A DNA stretch of 64,000 nucleotides from Haloarcula marina (lineage in GTDB: Archaea; Halobacteriota; Halobacteria; Halobacteriales; Haloarculaceae): NCBI RefSeq assembly GCF_024218775.1, contig NZ_CP100404.1, positions 744,001 to 808,000 of the forward strand. The letters are read 5' to 3'. A model generated the notes under the pieces. It did not search any database. It worked only from the letters and a program-made list of their open reading frames with translations, and was not told the origin of the DNA. The position numbers and the translations under genes were made by a program. Every line of letters begins with the position of its first letter. Position 1 is the first letter of the stretch. Shown piece by piece: positions 1 to 27,211 of this stretch.

Positions 1-2561
1 GAGAGCGTGGTCGAGGGCTGTCCGAGCGTCATGTAGTCCAGTCCCACGTCCTTCAGGAGTTGGAGGCGGCGGCGGATGCCGGGGTGGCTCTCGAAGAAGT
101 CGTAGGCCTCCTCGACGCTCATCTCCAGCACGTCCGCGATGGTCGCGCCCTTGTAGGTCACGTCCAGCGTCTCGTCGTTGTAGCGCGCGCCGTCGCACTC
201 CTCGCAGGGCACCTCCACGTCCGAGAGGAAGTTCATGTCGATGGTCACAGTGCCTTGGCCGCCGCAGGCCTCACAGCGGCCGCCTTTGACGTTGAAGGAG
301 AACCGACCCTTCTCGTAGCCTCGCTGTTTGGCGAGGTTCGTCTCGGCGAACAACTCGCGGATGTGGTCGAAGACGTTGGTGTAGGTGGCCGGATTCGACC
401 GCGGCGTGCGGCCGATAGGCGACTGGTCGATGAGACGGACCGTCTCTATCTGGTCGATGCCCTCGATGTCGTCGTGTTCGCCGGGGTTCACGTCGGTGTC
501 GTTCATCCGGCGGACGAGGCCCTTGTACAGGATGTCGTGCATCAGCGTCGATTTCCCGGACCCGGAGACGCCCGTGATGGCGGTGAACGTGCTGAGCGGG
601 AACTGCACGTCGAGGTCCTTGAGGTTGTGCTGACGTGCCCCTTTGACCGTGAGGTGGCCGTCGGCCTCGCGGCGCTCCTCGGGGACCGGAATCGTCCGCT
701 CGCCAGCGAGGTAGTCGCCGGTGACCGACGCCTCGGCGGCCATCAGTTCCTCCTGGGGGCCGTTGACGACGACTTCGCCGCCGCGCTTGCCCGGTCCCGG
801 CCCCATGTCGATTATCTGGTCGGCCCGCCGCATCGTCTCCGTGTCGTGCTCGACGACCAGCAGGGTGTTCCCGAGGTCACGCAGTTCCTCTAAGGTGTTC
901 AGCAGGCGGTCGTTGTCGCGCTGGTGGAGGCCGATGGAGGGTTCGTCGAGGACGTAGAGGACGCCCACTAGCCCGGACCCGATTTGGGTGGCGAGGCGGA
1001 TGCGCTGGCTCTCGCCGCCCGAGAGCGTCGACGCCTCGCGGTCCAGCGTCAGGTACTCCAGTCCGACCTCCTGCATGAACCCGAGGCGGGCGCGAATCTC
1101 TTTGAGAATCTCCTCGGCTATCTTCCGGTCGCGCGCCGAGAGGTTCCCTTCGAGTCCCTCGAAGTGTTCGAGAGCGTCGCCGATGGACATCTCGTTGACC
1201 TCGGTGATGGCCGTGCCGTCGACGAGGACGGCCCGCGATTCGGCCTTCAGGCGCGTCCCCTCACAGGCGGGACAGGTGGTCGTCGCCATGAACTCCTCGA
1301 TGTGTTCGCGGGCGCGGTCCGAGTCCGTCTCGACGTGGCGACGTTCGAGGTTCGGGATGACTCCCTCGAAGCGCTCGGTCTTCTCGCGCGTGCCGTTCTT
1401 GGTGCGCCACTGGAAGTGGACGAGGCCGTCCGTGCCGTAGAGGAACTGTCGCTGTATCTCCTCGTCTAACTCCTCGAACGGCGTCGACAGCGAGACGCCG
1501 AAGTGCTCGGCGACGTTGTCCAGTTGCCGGGAGTAGTAGGTCCGGTCGTAGCTCCACGGCTCGAAGACGTGTTTCAGCGGCTTCGAGCGGTCCTGAATCA
1601 CGAGGTCCTCGCTGACCTCCTTCGTCTCGCCCAGTCCCTCGCACTCGGGACACGCGCCGTGGGGCGAGTTGAACGAGAACGACCGGGTCTCGACCTCGCT
1701 GATGTCGATGCCGCAGTGCGTGCAGGCGAGGTCCTCCGAGAGTTCGACGACGAGGCGGTCTTCCTCGTCGGCCTCCGCGAGGTCACCGGTCGCCCGCGCC
1801 GTCGACCCGCCCAGCGCGTCGGCCGCGCCCTCCGGCGGGTCCGGGAGGATGACCTTCAGCGTGCCGTCGGCCTCCTCCAAGGCCGTCTCGACCGAGTCGG
1901 TGAGGCGCGACCGGGCTTCCGTCGACACCTTCACGCGGTCGACCACCACGTCGACGGTGTGGTCGAAGTTCTCGTCTAACTCCGGCCGGTCCATCGTCAG
2001 GTCGAACTCCTCGCCGTCGACTTCGACGCGACTGTACCCGTCGGAGACGAGGTCGTCGAACAGGTCCTCGAAGGCTCCTTTCTGGTCGCGGACGACCGGC
2101 GCGGCCAGTTTCGCGCGGGTCCCCTCGGGGAGTTCGAGCAGGCGCGTCACCATGTTCTGAGCCGATTGCTCGCCCACCTCGCGGCCACATTCGGGACAGT
2201 GCGGGACGCCGGTCCGGGCGTACAGCAGGCGGAGGTAGTCGTGGAGTTCCGTGACGGTCCCGACCGTCGACCGGGGGTTGTTGGCGGCGTTCTTCTGGTC
2301 GATGGAGATAGCGGGGGAGAGGCCCTCGACGTTCTCGACCTGGGGCTTGTCCATCTGACCGAGGAAGTTGCGGGCGTAGGCGGACAGCGACTCGATGTAG
2401 CGCCGTTGTCCCTCCGCGTACACCGTCTCGAAGGCGAGCGACGACTTCCCCGACCCCGACAGCCCCGTGACGACGGTGAGTTCCTCGCGGGGAATCTCCA
2501 CGTCGACGTCCTTGAGGTTGTGTTCCTCTGCACCCGTGACCTCGATGACGTCCTTGCTCAT
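1..2561 (-). CDS. uvrA: UvrABC excinuclease subunit A, C-terminal end missing (window edge)
   Basis: Damage-recognition ATPase of nucleotide excision repair, an ABC-type protein acting in the cytoplasm. The reading frame starts at the ATG at 2559-2561 and is open to base 1, giving 853 codons before the edge. Visible landmarks are a first P-loop GLSGSGKS (residues 33-40), zinc-finger Cys pairs near CPECG and CEACGG, an ABC signature LSGGESQR, and a second P-loop [10 protein letters not shown]. The last visible residues, GQPSTTL, lead into the second ABC signature, so only roughly the last 100 residues are missing. It diverges from the LURP-one-like gene across 113 bp. Family identity is certain; completeness cannot be judged. 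Confidence 0.97.
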
Positions 2562-2674
2562 GTATGGGTTCCCCAAGGATTCGGTCGGTGAAACCCTGTC
2601 GGTTGGCCACAGTACGGACATTCAGTTGACAGGTGGCACCAACGTTGAAGTTCCGTTCGGCAGGAGACCCGTGT

Positions 2675-3256
2675 ATGTCGACGCCCTCCACCTACGACAT
2701 CCGCGGCATCGAACTCACGGACGACGAGTACACCGTCGAACAGAGCCTCATCCGGAACAAGTACAAGGCGATGGACGCCACCGGGGACGTGGTCCTCCGC
2801 GGGAAACAGAAGCTGTTCAAACTCAAAGAGCAGTTCCCGTTCGTCGACGGGGACGGCGAGGAAGTGTTCGAAGTCAACGCGGGCGGTATCATCGACGTGG
2901 CCGGGAACTACGTCCTCACCGACTCCCGGACCGACGAGGAAGTCGTCGTGCTCGACAACGACTTCTCGCTGTTGCAGGACACGTGGCGGGTCCGTGACCC
3001 CGACACCGGCGAGGAACTCGCGCGCATCGACTCCCGCGGTGCACTCGTGACCGTCGCCCGCAACGTCCTCCCGTTCGGCGCGCTCATCCCGCACAAGTAC
3101 GAAATCACCGACGCCGAGGGCGGCCACGTCGGCCGCGTCGACGGCCAGTTCTCCCTGCGCGACCGGTACGAGATAACTATCGACGACGCCCGGTCCGTCC
3201 CCAAAGAGCCAATCGTCGCCGCCGCCATGGTCATCGACGCGATTCAGGGCAACTGA
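2675..3256 (+). CDS. LURP-one-related (tubby-like fold) protein
   Basis: 193 residues starting [14 protein letters not shown] at 2675; an upstream in-frame start at 2633 adds an unconvincing 14 residues. The pattern of paired beta strands ([17 protein letters not shown], then a repeat of the form '[17 protein letters not shown]') and the overall length match haloarchaeal LURP-one-related proteins, which share the tubby/scramblase fold. No biochemical role is established for archaeal members. A potential role in membrane-lipid binding is inference from the fold only. It is transcribed away from uvrA and followed after 43 bp by an exported protein. Confidence 0.75.
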
Positions 3257-23145: not shown

Positions 23146-25089
23146 ATGACTGAACTCGGCGGCTTCCAAGATCACGTGGCGAGAATCGACCTCGGCGAGG
23201 GTGATGTATCCTACGAGGGTATCAACGACGCGGACGCGAGGAAGTACATCGGTGCGCGCGGACTCGGGGTGAAGTACGTCTTCGAGCAAGGTCCGGACGT
23301 CGACCCGCTCGGCCCGGACAACCTGCTGGCGTTCATGACCGGTCCGCTGACGGGGACGCAAGTGACGATGAGCGGCCGTATCGCCGTCTGCACGAAGTCG
23401 CCGCTGACCGGGACAGTGACAGATTCCCACCACGGTGGCTGGTCGGGCGCGCGCCTCAAGTGGGCCGGATTCGACGGCCTCCTCTTCGAGGGGCAGGCCG
23501 ACCACCCGGTGTACGCCGTCGTCGAAGACGGCGAGGTCGAACTCCGCGACGCCTCGCATCTCTGGGGCTGGGGCGTCCACGACACCGTCGAGGAACTCGA
23601 AGACGAGGTAGAGGGGTCCTACGGGAAGAACCTCTCGACGATGGCTATCGGCCCGGGTGGCGAGAACGAGGTGAAGTACGCCTGTATCATGAACGAGGAC
23701 GACCGGGCCTCGGGGCGGGGCGGTACCGGCTGTGTGATGGGCAACAAGAACCTGAAGGCCGTCGTGGTCAAGTCGTCCACTCGGATGCCGAAGCCAGAAG
23801 ACAAGGAGACGTTCCAGAAGGGACACAAGCAGGCGATGCAGGTCATTCAGGAGTCAGACATCACCGGGCCGAACGAAGGCGGCCTCTCGCTGTACGGCAC
23901 CAACGTCCTGATGAATCTCACGGAGGAGATGGACGGCCTGCCGACGAAGAACGCGAAGTACTCTTCGACCCGGTCGATGTCCGACGCCGAGGGCGACGGC
24001 GAGCGAATCCTCGACTCCGAGGACGTCTCCGGAGAGAACGTCCGAGAGAACATCCTCGTCGACGAACCGACGTGTCACTCCTGTCCGGTCGCCTGCAAGA
24101 AGGAAGTCGAGGTGCAGGCGATGCACAAGGGCGAGGAGATGAACGTCCGCACCGAGTCCTACGAGTACGAGTCGGCGTGGGCGCTCGGCCCGAACTCCGG
24201 CCACGTCGAACGCGACAAGATAGCGGTGATGCTCGAACGGTGTAACGACGTGGGCATCGACACCATCGACGCGGGCAACACGATGGCGATGACGATGGAG
24301 ATGACCGAACAGGGCAAACTGGACGGACTCGGCGACGGCATCGACTGGGGGGACGCCGACACCATGATAGACATGATAGACGCCATCGGCGACCGCGAGA
24401 CGGAACTCGCGGACCACCTCGCCGAGGGGCCGTCCCACCTCGCCGCGGAGTTCGACGCCGCCGGGAATTCGCTGGCCGTGAAGGGCCAGACGATGGCCGC
24501 CTACGACCCGCGCTGCATGAAGGGGATGGCTATCGGCTACGCGACCTCCAACCGCGGGGCCTGCCACCTGCGCGGGTACACCCCGGCCGCCGAGATTCTC
24601 GGCGTCCCGGAGAAGGTCGACCCCCGCGAGTGGGAGGGGAAAGGCGAACTGTGCGCGCTCTTCCAGGACCTCCACGCCATCAGCGACTCGTTCGACATCT
24701 GCAAGTTCAACGCCTTCGCGGAGGGCATCGAGGAGTACGTGCTCCAGTACAACGGTATGACCGGACTGGACGTGAGCGAGGAGGAACTGATGGAGGCTGG
24801 CGAGCGCGTCTACAACCTCGAACGGTACTACAACAACCTCGCGGGCTTCGACGGCGACGACGACAGCCTCCCGGACCGCTTCGTCGAGGGCCACGAGGAC
24901 GCCATCCCCGCACAGGGCGGTTCGGAGGGCGAACTGGCGGAACTGGACAAACTGAAGGCGGAGTACTACGAGGTCCGTGGCTGGGAGGACGGCGTCGTCC
25001 CCGACGAGAAACTCGCGGAACTGGACATCGACATCGGCCCCGGGACGGGCGTCAGTTCCGGCGGCGCGGCCGCACCGAGCGACGACTGA
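23146..25089 (+). CDS. aor: Tungsten aldehyde:ferredoxin oxidoreductase (AOR family)
   Basis: 647 residues starting MTELGGFQDHVARIDLG; an upstream GTG at 23113 overlaps the promoter. AOR N-terminal domain motifs are present ('KYIGARGLGVKYVFEQ', 'MTGPLTGTQVTMSGR', 'SHHGGWSGARLKWAGFDG'). The [4Fe-4S] cluster is bound by C310-x2-C313-x3-C317 and C519, the classic AOR spacing. The bis-molybdopterin tungsten centre oxidises aldehydes to acids and reduces ferredoxin. Haloarchaeal relatives exist, but the substrate of this one is unknown. It sits directly behind the importer and is followed after 23 bp by a small conserved gene. Confidence 0.93.
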   Translation: MTELGGFQDHVARIDLGEGDVSYEGINDADARKYIGARGLGVKYVFEQGPDVDPLGPDNLLAFMTGPLTGTQVTMSGRIAVCTKSPLTGTVTDSHHGGWSGARLKWAGFDGLLFEGQADHPVYAVVEDGEVELRDASHLWGWGVHDTVEELEDEVEGSYGKNLSTMAIGPGGENEVKYACIMNEDDRASGRGGTGCVMGNKNLKAVVVKSSTRMPKPEDKETFQKGHKQAMQVIQESDITGPNEGGLSLYGTNVLMNLTEEMDGLPTKNAKYSSTRSMSDAEGDGERILDSEDVSGENVRENILVDEPTCHSCPVACKKEVEVQAMHKGEEMNVRTESYEYESAWALGPNSGHVERDKIAVMLERCNDVGIDTIDAGNTMAMTMEMTEQGKLDGLGDGIDWGDADTMIDMIDAIGDRETELADHLAEGPSHLAAEFDAAGNSLAVKGQTMAAYDPRCMKGMAIGYATSNRGACHLRGYTPAAEILGVPEKVDPREWEGKGELCALFQDLHAISDSFDICKFNAFAEGIEEYVLQYNGMTGLDVSEEELMEAGERVYNLERYYNNLAGFDGDDDSLPDRFVEGHEDAIPAQGGSEGELAELDKLKAEYYEVRGWEDGVVPDEKLAELDIDIGPGTGVSSGGAAAPSDD

Positions 25090-25112: not shown

Positions 25113-25475
25113 ATGCACAGAGACGAGTTCGAGGACTTCGAGTTCCAGGTCGAGTCGCGGCTGACGAGTCACGGCGTCTACGTACAGACGTTCGAAGAGC
25201 GCACCGAGGAGAACACCTACGCGGTCACCTACGAGTCTATCGCCGCGGAACCGGGGTCGGTCCCGCACCGCGAAATCGGACGGGTCATCAACGTTCTGCG
25301 TGACCTCCACGCCGACGACTGGTCGGGCGCGGACGTGGAGGCGACGGTCCTCGACTTAGAGGAGGAGGTCCGCGGCTACTGGTACGTCGACGCCGAGTGG
25401 TTCGACCGCCTCCACAACGGCGACCTCTCGGAGACCGACTTCTCGCAGAAGGTGCTGGAGACGCTCAGCGTGTAG
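25113..25475 (+). CDS. AOR-linked acidic protein of unknown function
   Basis: 120 residues, MHRDEFEDFEFQVES. Mixed alpha/beta, acidic (many Asp and Glu), with aromatic-rich 'GYWYVDAEWFDRLHNGD' and no cysteine. It starts 23 bp after the aor stop in the same direction, so it is probably co-transcribed. Position suggests a chaperone or partner for AOR, comparable in place though not in sequence to the small accessory genes beside other molybdo/tungstoenzymes. I do not recognise the family. Confidence 0.7.
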   Translation: MHRDEFEDFEFQVESRLTSHGVYVQTFEERTEENTYAVTYESIAAEPGSVPHREIGRVINVLRDLHADDWSGADVEATVLDLEEEVRGYWYVDAEWFDRLHNGDLSETDFSQKVLETLSV

Positions 25476-25827
25476 CGCCGACGGCGACCACCGAGCGGAT
25501 TTCGAGGGTCGATTCGAACTCCCCCTCGCGGTCGAGGCGGCGGCCGTCTCTGCTGAACTGCGCCTCGTGGGCGCGGCGAACCGCCTCCCACTCCCGGCGG
25601 TTGAAGCCCAGCGTCTCGCCCGCCGCTTCCCAGTACTCCGGGCCGACGCAGTAGTAGTCGGCGTCTCGCGCCCCCGAGATGCGCTCGTAGCGGCGCTCGA
25701 ACTCTTCGCGGCGGGTCTCGATATGTGTCTGAGCGCGCTCCAGTAGGTCGGGGAGGCGGTCCAGCGGGACGCTGGCCTGCGTCCCGGCCAGCAGAACGAG
25801 TTGGGCCTCGATGGGATGGTCGCCCAT
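25465..25827 (-). CDS. Conserved haloarchaeal protein of unknown function (third of a three-gene unit)
   Basis: 120 residues, MGDHPIEAQLVLLAGTQASV. Mostly helical, with heptad-like 'DLLERAQTHIETRREEFERRYERI' and 'GFNRREWEAVRRAHEAQF' and a single Cys in DYYCVGPEYW. It overlaps the end of the converging AOR-linked gene by 11 bp and starts 2 bp after the stop of the next minus-strand gene. No named family recognised; the helices suggest a protein-binding adaptor. Confidence 0.65.
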   Translation of the reverse strand: MGDHPIEAQLVLLAGTQASVPLDRLPDLLERAQTHIETRREEFERRYERISGARDADYYCVGPEYWEAAGETLGFNRREWEAVRRAHEAQFSRDGRRLDREGEFESTLEIRSVVAVGATR

Positions 25828-25829
25828 CG

Positions 25830-26087
25830 CTACCCGCCGGCACGCATCGCCTTCTGGGCGAACCGCTCGACCACCGAGTCCAGCGTCTCCGCCTCGCCCT
25901 CGAAGACGACAGTCACCTCGGTCAGTTCGATGGTCGGGCCGATGCCGACCTTCTCGGCGGAGAGGTCCGCCCGCCAGTCGTCGGCGACGACGGTGGTTTC
26001 GTCGCGTTCCTCGCCACCCAGGCCCGTCAGGTAGTGACGGGCCAGTCGCATCGAGATGCCACGAAAGCGCCGCTCGCGTCGGCTCAT
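25830..26087 (-). CDS. Small conserved protein of unknown function (second of a three-gene unit)
   Basis: 85 residues, MSRRERRFRGISMRLARHYL. After a basic N-terminus it has 'TGLGGEERD' and a beta-rich half, 'VGIGPTIELTEVTVVFEGEAETL', ending FAQKAMRAGG. The C-terminal Gly-Gly is noteworthy in a locus with two MoaD-like proteins, but the fold is not obviously ubiquitin-like. The start overlaps the stop of the first gene (ATGA). Confidence 0.65.
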   Translation of the reverse strand: MSRRERRFRGISMRLARHYLTGLGGEERDETTVVADDWRADLSAEKVGIGPTIELTEVTVVFEGEAETLDSVVERFAQKAMRAGG

Positions 26088-26452
26088 CCCGGGCGGATGC
26101 CGTCGTCGACGATGCGGGCGTTTCGCTCGCGGCCGATGCGGTCGGCGAGGTCGGCGTGGTCGTATATCTGCTGGATAATCGACGCCAGCAGGTCCCGCCA
26201 CGCCATCGCGTAGATGGGCGATTGGCCCCACGCGCGCAGTTCGACGACGTATTCGTCGTATGCCTCCCAGCGCTGTTCGAAGTACTCGACGAGGTCCACG
26301 ACGGCGCTCGCGGGGTCGTCACTGTCGAGCGCCGCGTTCACGTCGGTCTCCCACCCGGCGACGGCCCGTTGGATGTCCTGTTTCGCGTCCTCGCCGTCGG
26401 CGGGCAGAGCGTCGACGATGGCCGACGGAATGCCCAGTTCGATGTCTTCCAT
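26084..26452 (-). CDS. Conserved protein of unknown function (first of a three-gene unit)
   Basis: 122 residues starting MEDIELGIPSAIVDALP at 26452. All-helical and acidic, with 'DPASAVVDLVEYFEQRWEAYDEYVVEL' and a conserved-looking 'AMAWRDLLASIIQQIYDH'. No cysteine, signal or membrane segment. It leads the three-gene minus-strand unit that lies between the AOR genes and the MoaD-like genes, and faces the MoaD-like gene across a 91-bp divergent region. Confidence 0.65.
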   Translation of the reverse strand: MEDIELGIPSAIVDALPADGEDAKQDIQRAVAGWETDVNAALDSDDPASAVVDLVEYFEQRWEAYDEYVVELRAWGQSPIYAMAWRDLLASIIQQIYDHADLADRIGRERNARIVDDGIRPG

Positions 26453-26543
26453 ACCCGCTACTGGGGCCGCGGGCAATTAAAATCGGTCCCGCCCGAACGT
26501 GTTCGCACCCACCGTCTTAGCCACGCTTGCCGTAGTCCTCCGC

Positions 26544-26939
26544 ATGAGTGGGACGACTCAAACGGCCGCCGAGCGAACGCAGACGACCGTCGAGGTGCAC
26601 TGCACGGGCCACGTCAGGGGCGTGGTCGGAGAACCGTACGTCGAATTCACCTTCGAAGGCACGACGCTCAGAGCGTTCCTCGACGCGTTCTGTGCGCGCT
26701 ACGACGTCGCCGACCTCCTCATCGCCGAGACTGAGTCCGACGCCGCGACGACGGGGTGGGCCCCGGAACTGGAGTCGCTACCCGGGACGTGGGAGAAGAA
26801 CCCCGAGGGTGACCAGACCCGCTGTTACGCCCGCGTCACCGTCGACGGGCAGTTCAACGAGTGTCTGGCCGGCCTCGACACCGAACTCGACGGCGGCGAG
26901 CGAATCGGCCTCCTGTACCCGTTCATCTTCTGCTGTTAG
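26544..26939 (+). CDS. MoaD-like beta-grasp protein ending in Cys-Cys
   Basis: 131 residues starting MSGTTQTAAERTQTTVEV. The layout of a first strand pair (VEVHCTGHVRGVVGEPYVEFTFEGTTLRAFLDAFCARY), a helix, and a last segment 'VTVDGQFNECLAGLDTELDGGERIGLLYPFIFCC' follows MoaD/ThiS-type ubiquitin-like proteins, including the 'DG..I.LLYP' last strand. The terminal dipeptide is C130-C131 rather than the Gly-Gly needed for adenylylation, and five other Cys are present. It is convergent with a normal MoaD (4-bp overlap) and near aor, so a role in tungstopterin assembly or sulfur transfer is inferred. The fold assignment is by eye. Confidence 0.65.
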   Translation: MSGTTQTAAERTQTTVEVHCTGHVRGVVGEPYVEFTFEGTTLRAFLDAFCARYDVADLLIAETESDAATTGWAPELESLPGTWEKNPEGDQTRCYARVTVDGQFNECLAGLDTELDGGERIGLLYPFIFCC

Positions 26940-27211
26940 CCGCCAGCGACGGGCGGGAACACGCTGAGTTCGTCGCCGTCTTCGAGCGTCGTCTCCAGTC
27001 CGTCCAGATGCTCGATGTCCTGCCCGTTGCGCAGGATGGTCAGGTACTGCCGTAGTTCGTCGTCGGACTCGAAGAGGTCCATCTCGGGGAATTCCTCGGG
27101 CAGCGACCGCAGGATGTCGCCCGCCCGCGCGTCGTCGTCGAACTCCCGGTGGAGAATCTTCTGCCCGACGGCCGCACGGAAGTTCGCGAAGAAGCGCAAC
27201 TCGATTTCCAT
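26936..27211 (-). CDS. moaD: MoaD-family ubiquitin-like small archaeal modifier protein
   Basis: 91 residues, MEIELRFFANFRAAVGQKIL. A beta-grasp fold with the conserved 'VFPPVAGG' C-terminus. The terminal Gly-Gly is activated by the E1-like enzyme UbaA (a copy lies at 50184-50999). In haloarchaea this protein class (SAMP1-like) serves both as sulfur carrier for molybdopterin synthase and as a covalent protein modifier. It overlaps the convergent Cys-Cys-ending paralogue by 4 bp. Confidence 0.88.
   Translation of the reverse strand: MEIELRFFANFRAAVGQKILHREFDDDARAGDILRSLPEEFPEMDLFESDDELRQYLTILRNGQDIEHLDGLETTLEDGDELSVFPPVAGG

Follow-up and report, generated by a model that had tools for sequence, protein, structure and literature searches.

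In the window, by which we mean the whole 64-kb stretch of DNA that was analysed, positions 26544..26939 of the forward strand carry a gene for a Cys-tailed, MoaD-like (beta-grasp) protein of 131 aa, referred to below as the CC gene and the CC protein. Inspection of the open reading frame (ORF) found an intact frame, with ATG at the start and TGC TGT TAG at the end, and the product ends in YPFIFCC, which bears out the C-terminal FCC in place of Gly-Gly described in the initial annotation. Convergent with the CC gene lies a SAMP1-like MoaD of the normal type (26936..27211, reverse strand; 91 aa, ending in FPPVAGG), which scores 92.4 bits against the NCBIfam SAMP1 model (cut-off 60). The 4-bp overlap that had been noticed between the two convergent genes is confirmed by the ORF coordinates; it spans 26936-26939 and includes the stop of the CC gene.

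The same region encodes an aldehyde ferredoxin oxidoreductase (AOR, of the tungstopterin enzyme family; 23146..25089, forward strand) and, 3' of aor, the 120-aa protein hyp25113 (25113..25475, forward strand), which has no Pfam match above cut-off and whose presence pattern within the genus equals that of AOR and of the CC gene. A divergent operon on the reverse strand is opened by m26084 (26084..26452), a conserved protein of 122 aa that serves as our marker of the AOR module and is probably one of arCOG06307/06309. It continues with m25830 (25830..26087), a protein of 85 aa with an invariant A-x-R-A-G-G end, and is closed by the conserved protein m25465 (25465..25827). The model of m25830 (pLDDT 93.5) matches the Thermus MoaD-related protein 1v8c with an E value of 1.5e-5, and m25830 is probably arCOG06308, a GG-ended TBP-like protein reported in a paper of 2010 (PMC2948915). 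At one locus (L186 of genome G134, 2477-3025, reverse strand), the MoaD ORF continues in frame into m25830 (FPPVAGG...KAMRAGG), forming a natural fusion of MoaD with the GG domain. Some AOR-linked MoaDs carry residues past Gly-Gly (VAGGASEVR, VAGGSDAVTAEG and VAGGNR; L170 5788-6066, L185 3291-3557 and L187 4198-4473), so that in these the GG would need to be exposed by a protease.

The CC gene is a real, conserved gene, since 63 of the 146 genomes of its family and 243 of the 391 in an order sample encode a homologue, mostly free of stops. Apparent decay is seen at two loci, one in Natronosalvus hydrolyticus (L047, 1249-1644), where the CC gene has an in-frame stop at residue 25, and one in genome G002 (L055, 6868-7179), where it has a frame change and a stop.

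Fold and descent of the CC protein

Compared as a single sequence with Pfam, NCBIfam and the PDB sequences, the CC protein gave sub-threshold matches only (moaD_arch, E 0.0066); its homology becomes clear once the family alignment is used instead. The Pfam ThiS model matches 46 of 47 family members (best E 1.4e-7), and the hhalign comparison of the CC family with the neighbouring MoaD family (97.4%, E 1e-11) covers the entire length of MoaD and places the YPF strand of the CC protein on the FPPV of MoaD. Furthermore, the AlphaFold model of the CC protein, built from 47 sequences with a mean pLDDT of 73.6, is a beta-grasp, and its top matches in the PDB are M. acetivorans SAMP1, HVO_2177, H. 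volcanii SAMP1, mycobacterial MoaD, CysO and Urm1. Thus, the CC protein descends from MoaD and has the ubiquitin/MoaD fold, as the initial annotation had proposed.

By fold and by sequence homology, the CC protein stands among the MoaD/ThiS/SAMP carriers, but it lacks their C-terminal Gly-Gly. With SAMP1, MoaD and HVO_2177 (SAMP3) it shares the fold, the order of the elements, the final strand and the LYP/FPP motif; different from them, it has Cys-X where they have Gly-Gly, as well as a conserved insertion of about 34 aa between the helix and the third strand. This insertion (about residues 61-95; 26724..26828, forward strand; AETE...GWAP...LPGTW.KNPEGDQTR) is not present in MoaD, is of low confidence in the AlphaFold model, and accounts for the length of 131 aa compared to the 91 aa of MoaD. 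It may provide a partner-specific surface beside the tail.

A MoaD look-alike of this kind could be a non-activatable decoy or regulator, which would bind MoaE, UbaA or AOR under anoxia and compete with the GG-ended MoaD, the thiol tail serving as an anchor or plug. The retention of the MoaD fold at full length in the hhalign comparison, with the loss of GG, is consistent with such a function, as are the normal MoaD encoded by the neighbours and the probably conditional expression suggested by the promoter motif described below. However, a pure decoy would have no need of an invariant Cys at a single position of the tail, and the conserved insertion suggests that the CC protein has a partner of its own; we consider this explanation unlikely.

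The C-terminal tail

The tail codons Cys130-Cys131 lie at 26931..26936 on the forward strand. We retrieved 131 distinct homologues, of which 122 have the penultimate Cys, with the ends FCC (86), YCC (10), FCL (14), FCF (4), FCV (2), YCF (2), YCV (2), FCM (1) and FCY (1). The remaining 9 of 131 are tandem paralogues (LTC, LTV, FAP, FAPRS), truncated or differently read ends, and one degenerate FRC copy. Taking as orthologues the sequences with the penultimate Cys and the FRC copy, Cys130 is kept in 121 of 122, a figure that depends on that selection; loci with stops or frame changes (L055 of G002, L047 and one copy in L169) were left out of the evidence on the tail. At residue 131, the 122 orthologues have Cys (96), Leu (14), Phe (6), Val (4) or another residue (2), all the non-Cys cases being Leu, Phe, Val, Met or Tyr, and none of the intact orthologues has a terminal Gly. 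Second or tandem copies of the CC gene without the FCX tail (LTC, LTV, FAPRS, FAP) were observed at L051, L052, L053, L044 and L113, and the LTC and LTV copies are also without the NPEG stretch and the palindrome at -50.

The CC end is thus not invariant across the homologue alignment, the check that the initial annotation had called for. Of the thiol pair it proposed for the tail, the penultimate Cys stands as a fixed residue and the second does not, being either Cys or hydrophobic. In a tree inferred with the tail columns excluded, the final residue goes from Cys to non-Cys or back at least 12 times and the penultimate residue changes once, a difference which points to a single penultimate thiol as the unit under selection. 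As judged from the alignment, this unit is one thiol that takes the place of the first Gly in Gly-Gly, with either Cys or a hydrophobic residue after it.

The variability of the last residue also argues against an obligatory vicinal disulfide or two-thiol metal site. It is possible to hypothesize that the two vicinal Cys residues bind a metal or NO, or form a disulfide for redox sensing or relay, and the occurrence of CC in 96 of 122 orthologues, together with the anoxia/denitrification-type promoter motif, would be in keeping with a site of this type. Nevertheless, 26 of the 122 orthologues have L, F, V, M or Y in place of the last Cys, the tree shows at least 12 changes at this residue, and no further Cys is invariant (Cys20 occurs in 93 of 122), all of which makes a two-thiol redox or metal site quite unlikely. 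Cys20, which lies in the CTGHVR motif, had also been considered as a second active Cys and was ruled out, as it is Ala in 20 of 122 orthologues.

Association with the AOR gene set and the promoter palindrome

Among the 146 genomes of the family, 61 have both the CC gene and AOR, 2 have the CC gene only, 13 have AOR only and 70 have neither, counts that take in related, non-independent genomes. The two genomes with the CC gene and no AOR are assemblies that are 67% and 75% complete. Within the window's genus, where the genes form one physical cluster, the sets of genomes with the CC gene and with AOR are identical (19 with, 13 without). AOR was scored in the family alone, and m26084 serves as its proxy at the level of the order, where the CC gene is present in 243 genomes and m26084 in 290 of the 391-genome sample. 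The CC gene never occurs without m26084, either in the family (0/63) or in the order sample (0/243), and across the family its phi coefficient is 0.86 with m26084, 0.80 with AOR, 0.45 with CGCGG, 0.27 with nirK and 0.26 with norZ.

The arrangement of these genes varies. In the genus of the window and in a few more, the CC gene is divergent from the m26084-m25830-m25465 operon and near aor and the small aor-associated gene, with MoaD at the end of the CC gene opposite to the divergent operon; other genera have an m26084-MoaD-m25830-m25465 operon, often close to aor, with a CC gene that is often distant. The divergent arrangement of the CC gene and the m26084 operon, mostly less than about 400 bp apart, recurs in families f1, f4, f9 and f11. 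Outside the window's genus, 37 of 42 scored genomes have 70 kb or more between the CC gene and aor, or have the two on separate contigs, and physical linkage therefore does not account for the co-occurrence with AOR. The CC gene thus occurs only with AOR or m26084, without always being adjacent to aor: of the check on whether the gene always sits beside aor, the position fails and the co-occurrence with the AOR set holds. Across the order, the CC gene is strictly dependent on the AOR gene set, a strong link to the module, and the association with AOR read from the initial locus is stronger than a single window could reveal. Conversely, 47 of the 290 genomes bearing the marker have no CC gene, from which it follows that AOR is not strictly dependent on the CC protein.

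Exactly 50 bp before the start codon of the CC gene lies the palindrome CGAACGTGTTCG (26494..26505), the one occurrence of CGAA....TTCG within the 64-kb window, which matches the denitrification motif CGAAYATDKTYG at 11 of 12 positions. The latter motif precedes nirK, nor and nosZ of H. mediterranei (PMC10062603; PMC11218638), and in that organism its mutation reduces the activity of the nos and nor promoters (PMC10062603). About 100 of the 131 members of the CC gene family carry a palindrome of the type CGAACATGTTCG 49 to 51 bp before the start codon, and a best site matching CGAAYATDKTYG at 11/12 or better is present in 60 of 65 CC upstream regions compared to 59 of 2000 random 200-bp windows. 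As regards its promoter motif, the CC gene falls within the denitrification regulon defined by CGAAYATDKTYG. In genomes with a distant CC gene, the palindrome is absent from the promoters of aor and m26084; it is thus a feature of the CC gene, and common regulation of this gene with aor need not be assumed.

In the window's genome, the same palindrome stands 50 bp before two DUF2249-like genes and the gene of a 439-aa membrane protein, and is also found near CGCGG and norZ-like genes. A denitrification-type cluster at L089, 6521-16096 (contig C1 of G000, about 3,114,500-3,124,100), carries at least six palindromes, several of them 50 bp before starts; it contains a nirK match (C1:3118770-3119561), norZ-like, CGCGG RiPP family (TIGR03995), radical SAM and DUF2249-like genes and a regulator, and is readable by bioinformatics as an anoxic regulon.

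The motif and some of the neighbourhoods had first suggested a denitrification enzyme as the partner, a candidate judged weak on the presence of nirK, norZ and CGCGG. A function as an accessory of denitrification (the nirK/norZ/CGCGG RiPP region) and not of AOR would agree with the upstream motif and with the several families in which the CC gene adjoins nirK, norZ, halocyanin, CGCGG rSAM-modified RiPP family protein or radical SAM genes. It is improbable, however, in view of the phi values of nirK and norZ (0.27 and 0.26) compared to those of AOR and m26084 (0.80 and 0.86), of two genomes (G011 and G023) that have the CC gene and no nirK or norZ match, and of several congeners that have nirK and norZ without the CC gene.

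Proposed role and relation to known sulfur carriers

We suggest, with a probability of about 0.4, that the CC protein is an anoxia-induced accessory of the haloarchaeal tungsten AOR, in which a thiol tail replaces the E1-activated Gly-Gly tail. The activator of the denitrification genes would bind the palindrome, and the CC protein would be induced without oxygen. UbaA would not adenylate it as it does MoaD, since the terminal Gly carboxylate is known to be needed: the terminal Gly is essential in MoaD, ThiS and ubiquitin. The chemistry, as we infer it by analogy, would rely on one tail thiol, perhaps a persulfide, instead of a thiocarboxylate. Most simply, the tail Cys would act as a thiol carrier whose persulfide serves the maturation or sulfuration of the AOR tungsten site; alternatively, the thiol (persulfide) would be carried to the operation of AOR.

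An ordinary sulfur carrier, with the terminal carboxylate adenylated by UbaA and converted to a thiocarboxylate, might be expected of a MoaD homologue within a cofactor gene set, but a tail that ends in Cys, Leu, Phe, Val, Met or Tyr, and never in the essential Gly in intact orthologues, makes it very improbable. Least probable of all is the tail Cys as a lipidation site for membrane anchoring, which a C-terminal Cys-X with a hydrophobic X would permit and which would resemble the -CC and -CXC ends of eukaryotic Rab proteins. Among the rival explanations, direct evidence stands against the two-thiol and the denitrification ones only.

The proposed accessory of AOR has a partial parallel in T. 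kodakarensis, where a MoaD-type ubiquitin-like protein (Ubl) is required for the tungsten cofactor (PMC11323500), which makes an Ubl accessory of AOR plausible. UblB and UblC of that organism (TK2118, TK1065) are likewise MoaD-type Ubls tied to AOR-family enzymes; different from the CC protein, they have a Gly-Gly end and act via the carboxylate (PMC11323500). DsrC is persulfurated only at its penultimate Cys (PMC3397948), and the sulfur-carrying Cys of DsrC/TusE is, like Cys130 of the CC protein, the last but one residue of a C-terminal arm (PMC3397948). This is an analogy of tail position and design alone: the CC protein has neither the fold nor the sequence family of DsrC, and no sign of common descent with DsrC/TusE appeared in the Pfam, NCBIfam and PDB sequence searches or in the PDB matches of the AlphaFold model. 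That the Ubl fold works here as a DsrC/TusE-type persulfide carrier, bringing sulfur to the AOR tungsten site under anoxia, is possible, though we hold it doubtful.

The CC protein almost certainly belongs to arCOG00539, a haloarchaeal beta-grasp family whose CC C-terminus was reported in 2010 by Makarova and Koonin, whose account of the family gives no function (PMC2948915). We infer the identity with the arCOG number from shared features, both being MoaD-type beta-grasp proteins of Halobacteria with a double-Cys end. A literature search of incomplete coverage found no later work on arCOG00539. The odd tail is thus already in print (PMC2948915), and that account does not appear to describe the rule for the penultimate Cys, the strict dependence on AOR or the promoter site.

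Sulfur carriers are usually split into two classes, persulfide proteins on the one hand and, on the other, ubiquitin-like proteins with a Gly-Gly end that form a thiocarboxylate (PMC11323500). If the proposed role is true, an Ubl with a fixed active thiol end would cross this divide and show the Ubl fold leaving E1 activation. The strict AOR dependence and the promoter site make a 15-year-old unexplained annotation a hypothesis open to gene deletion, and point towards a tungsten-enzyme accessory that had gone unrecognised.
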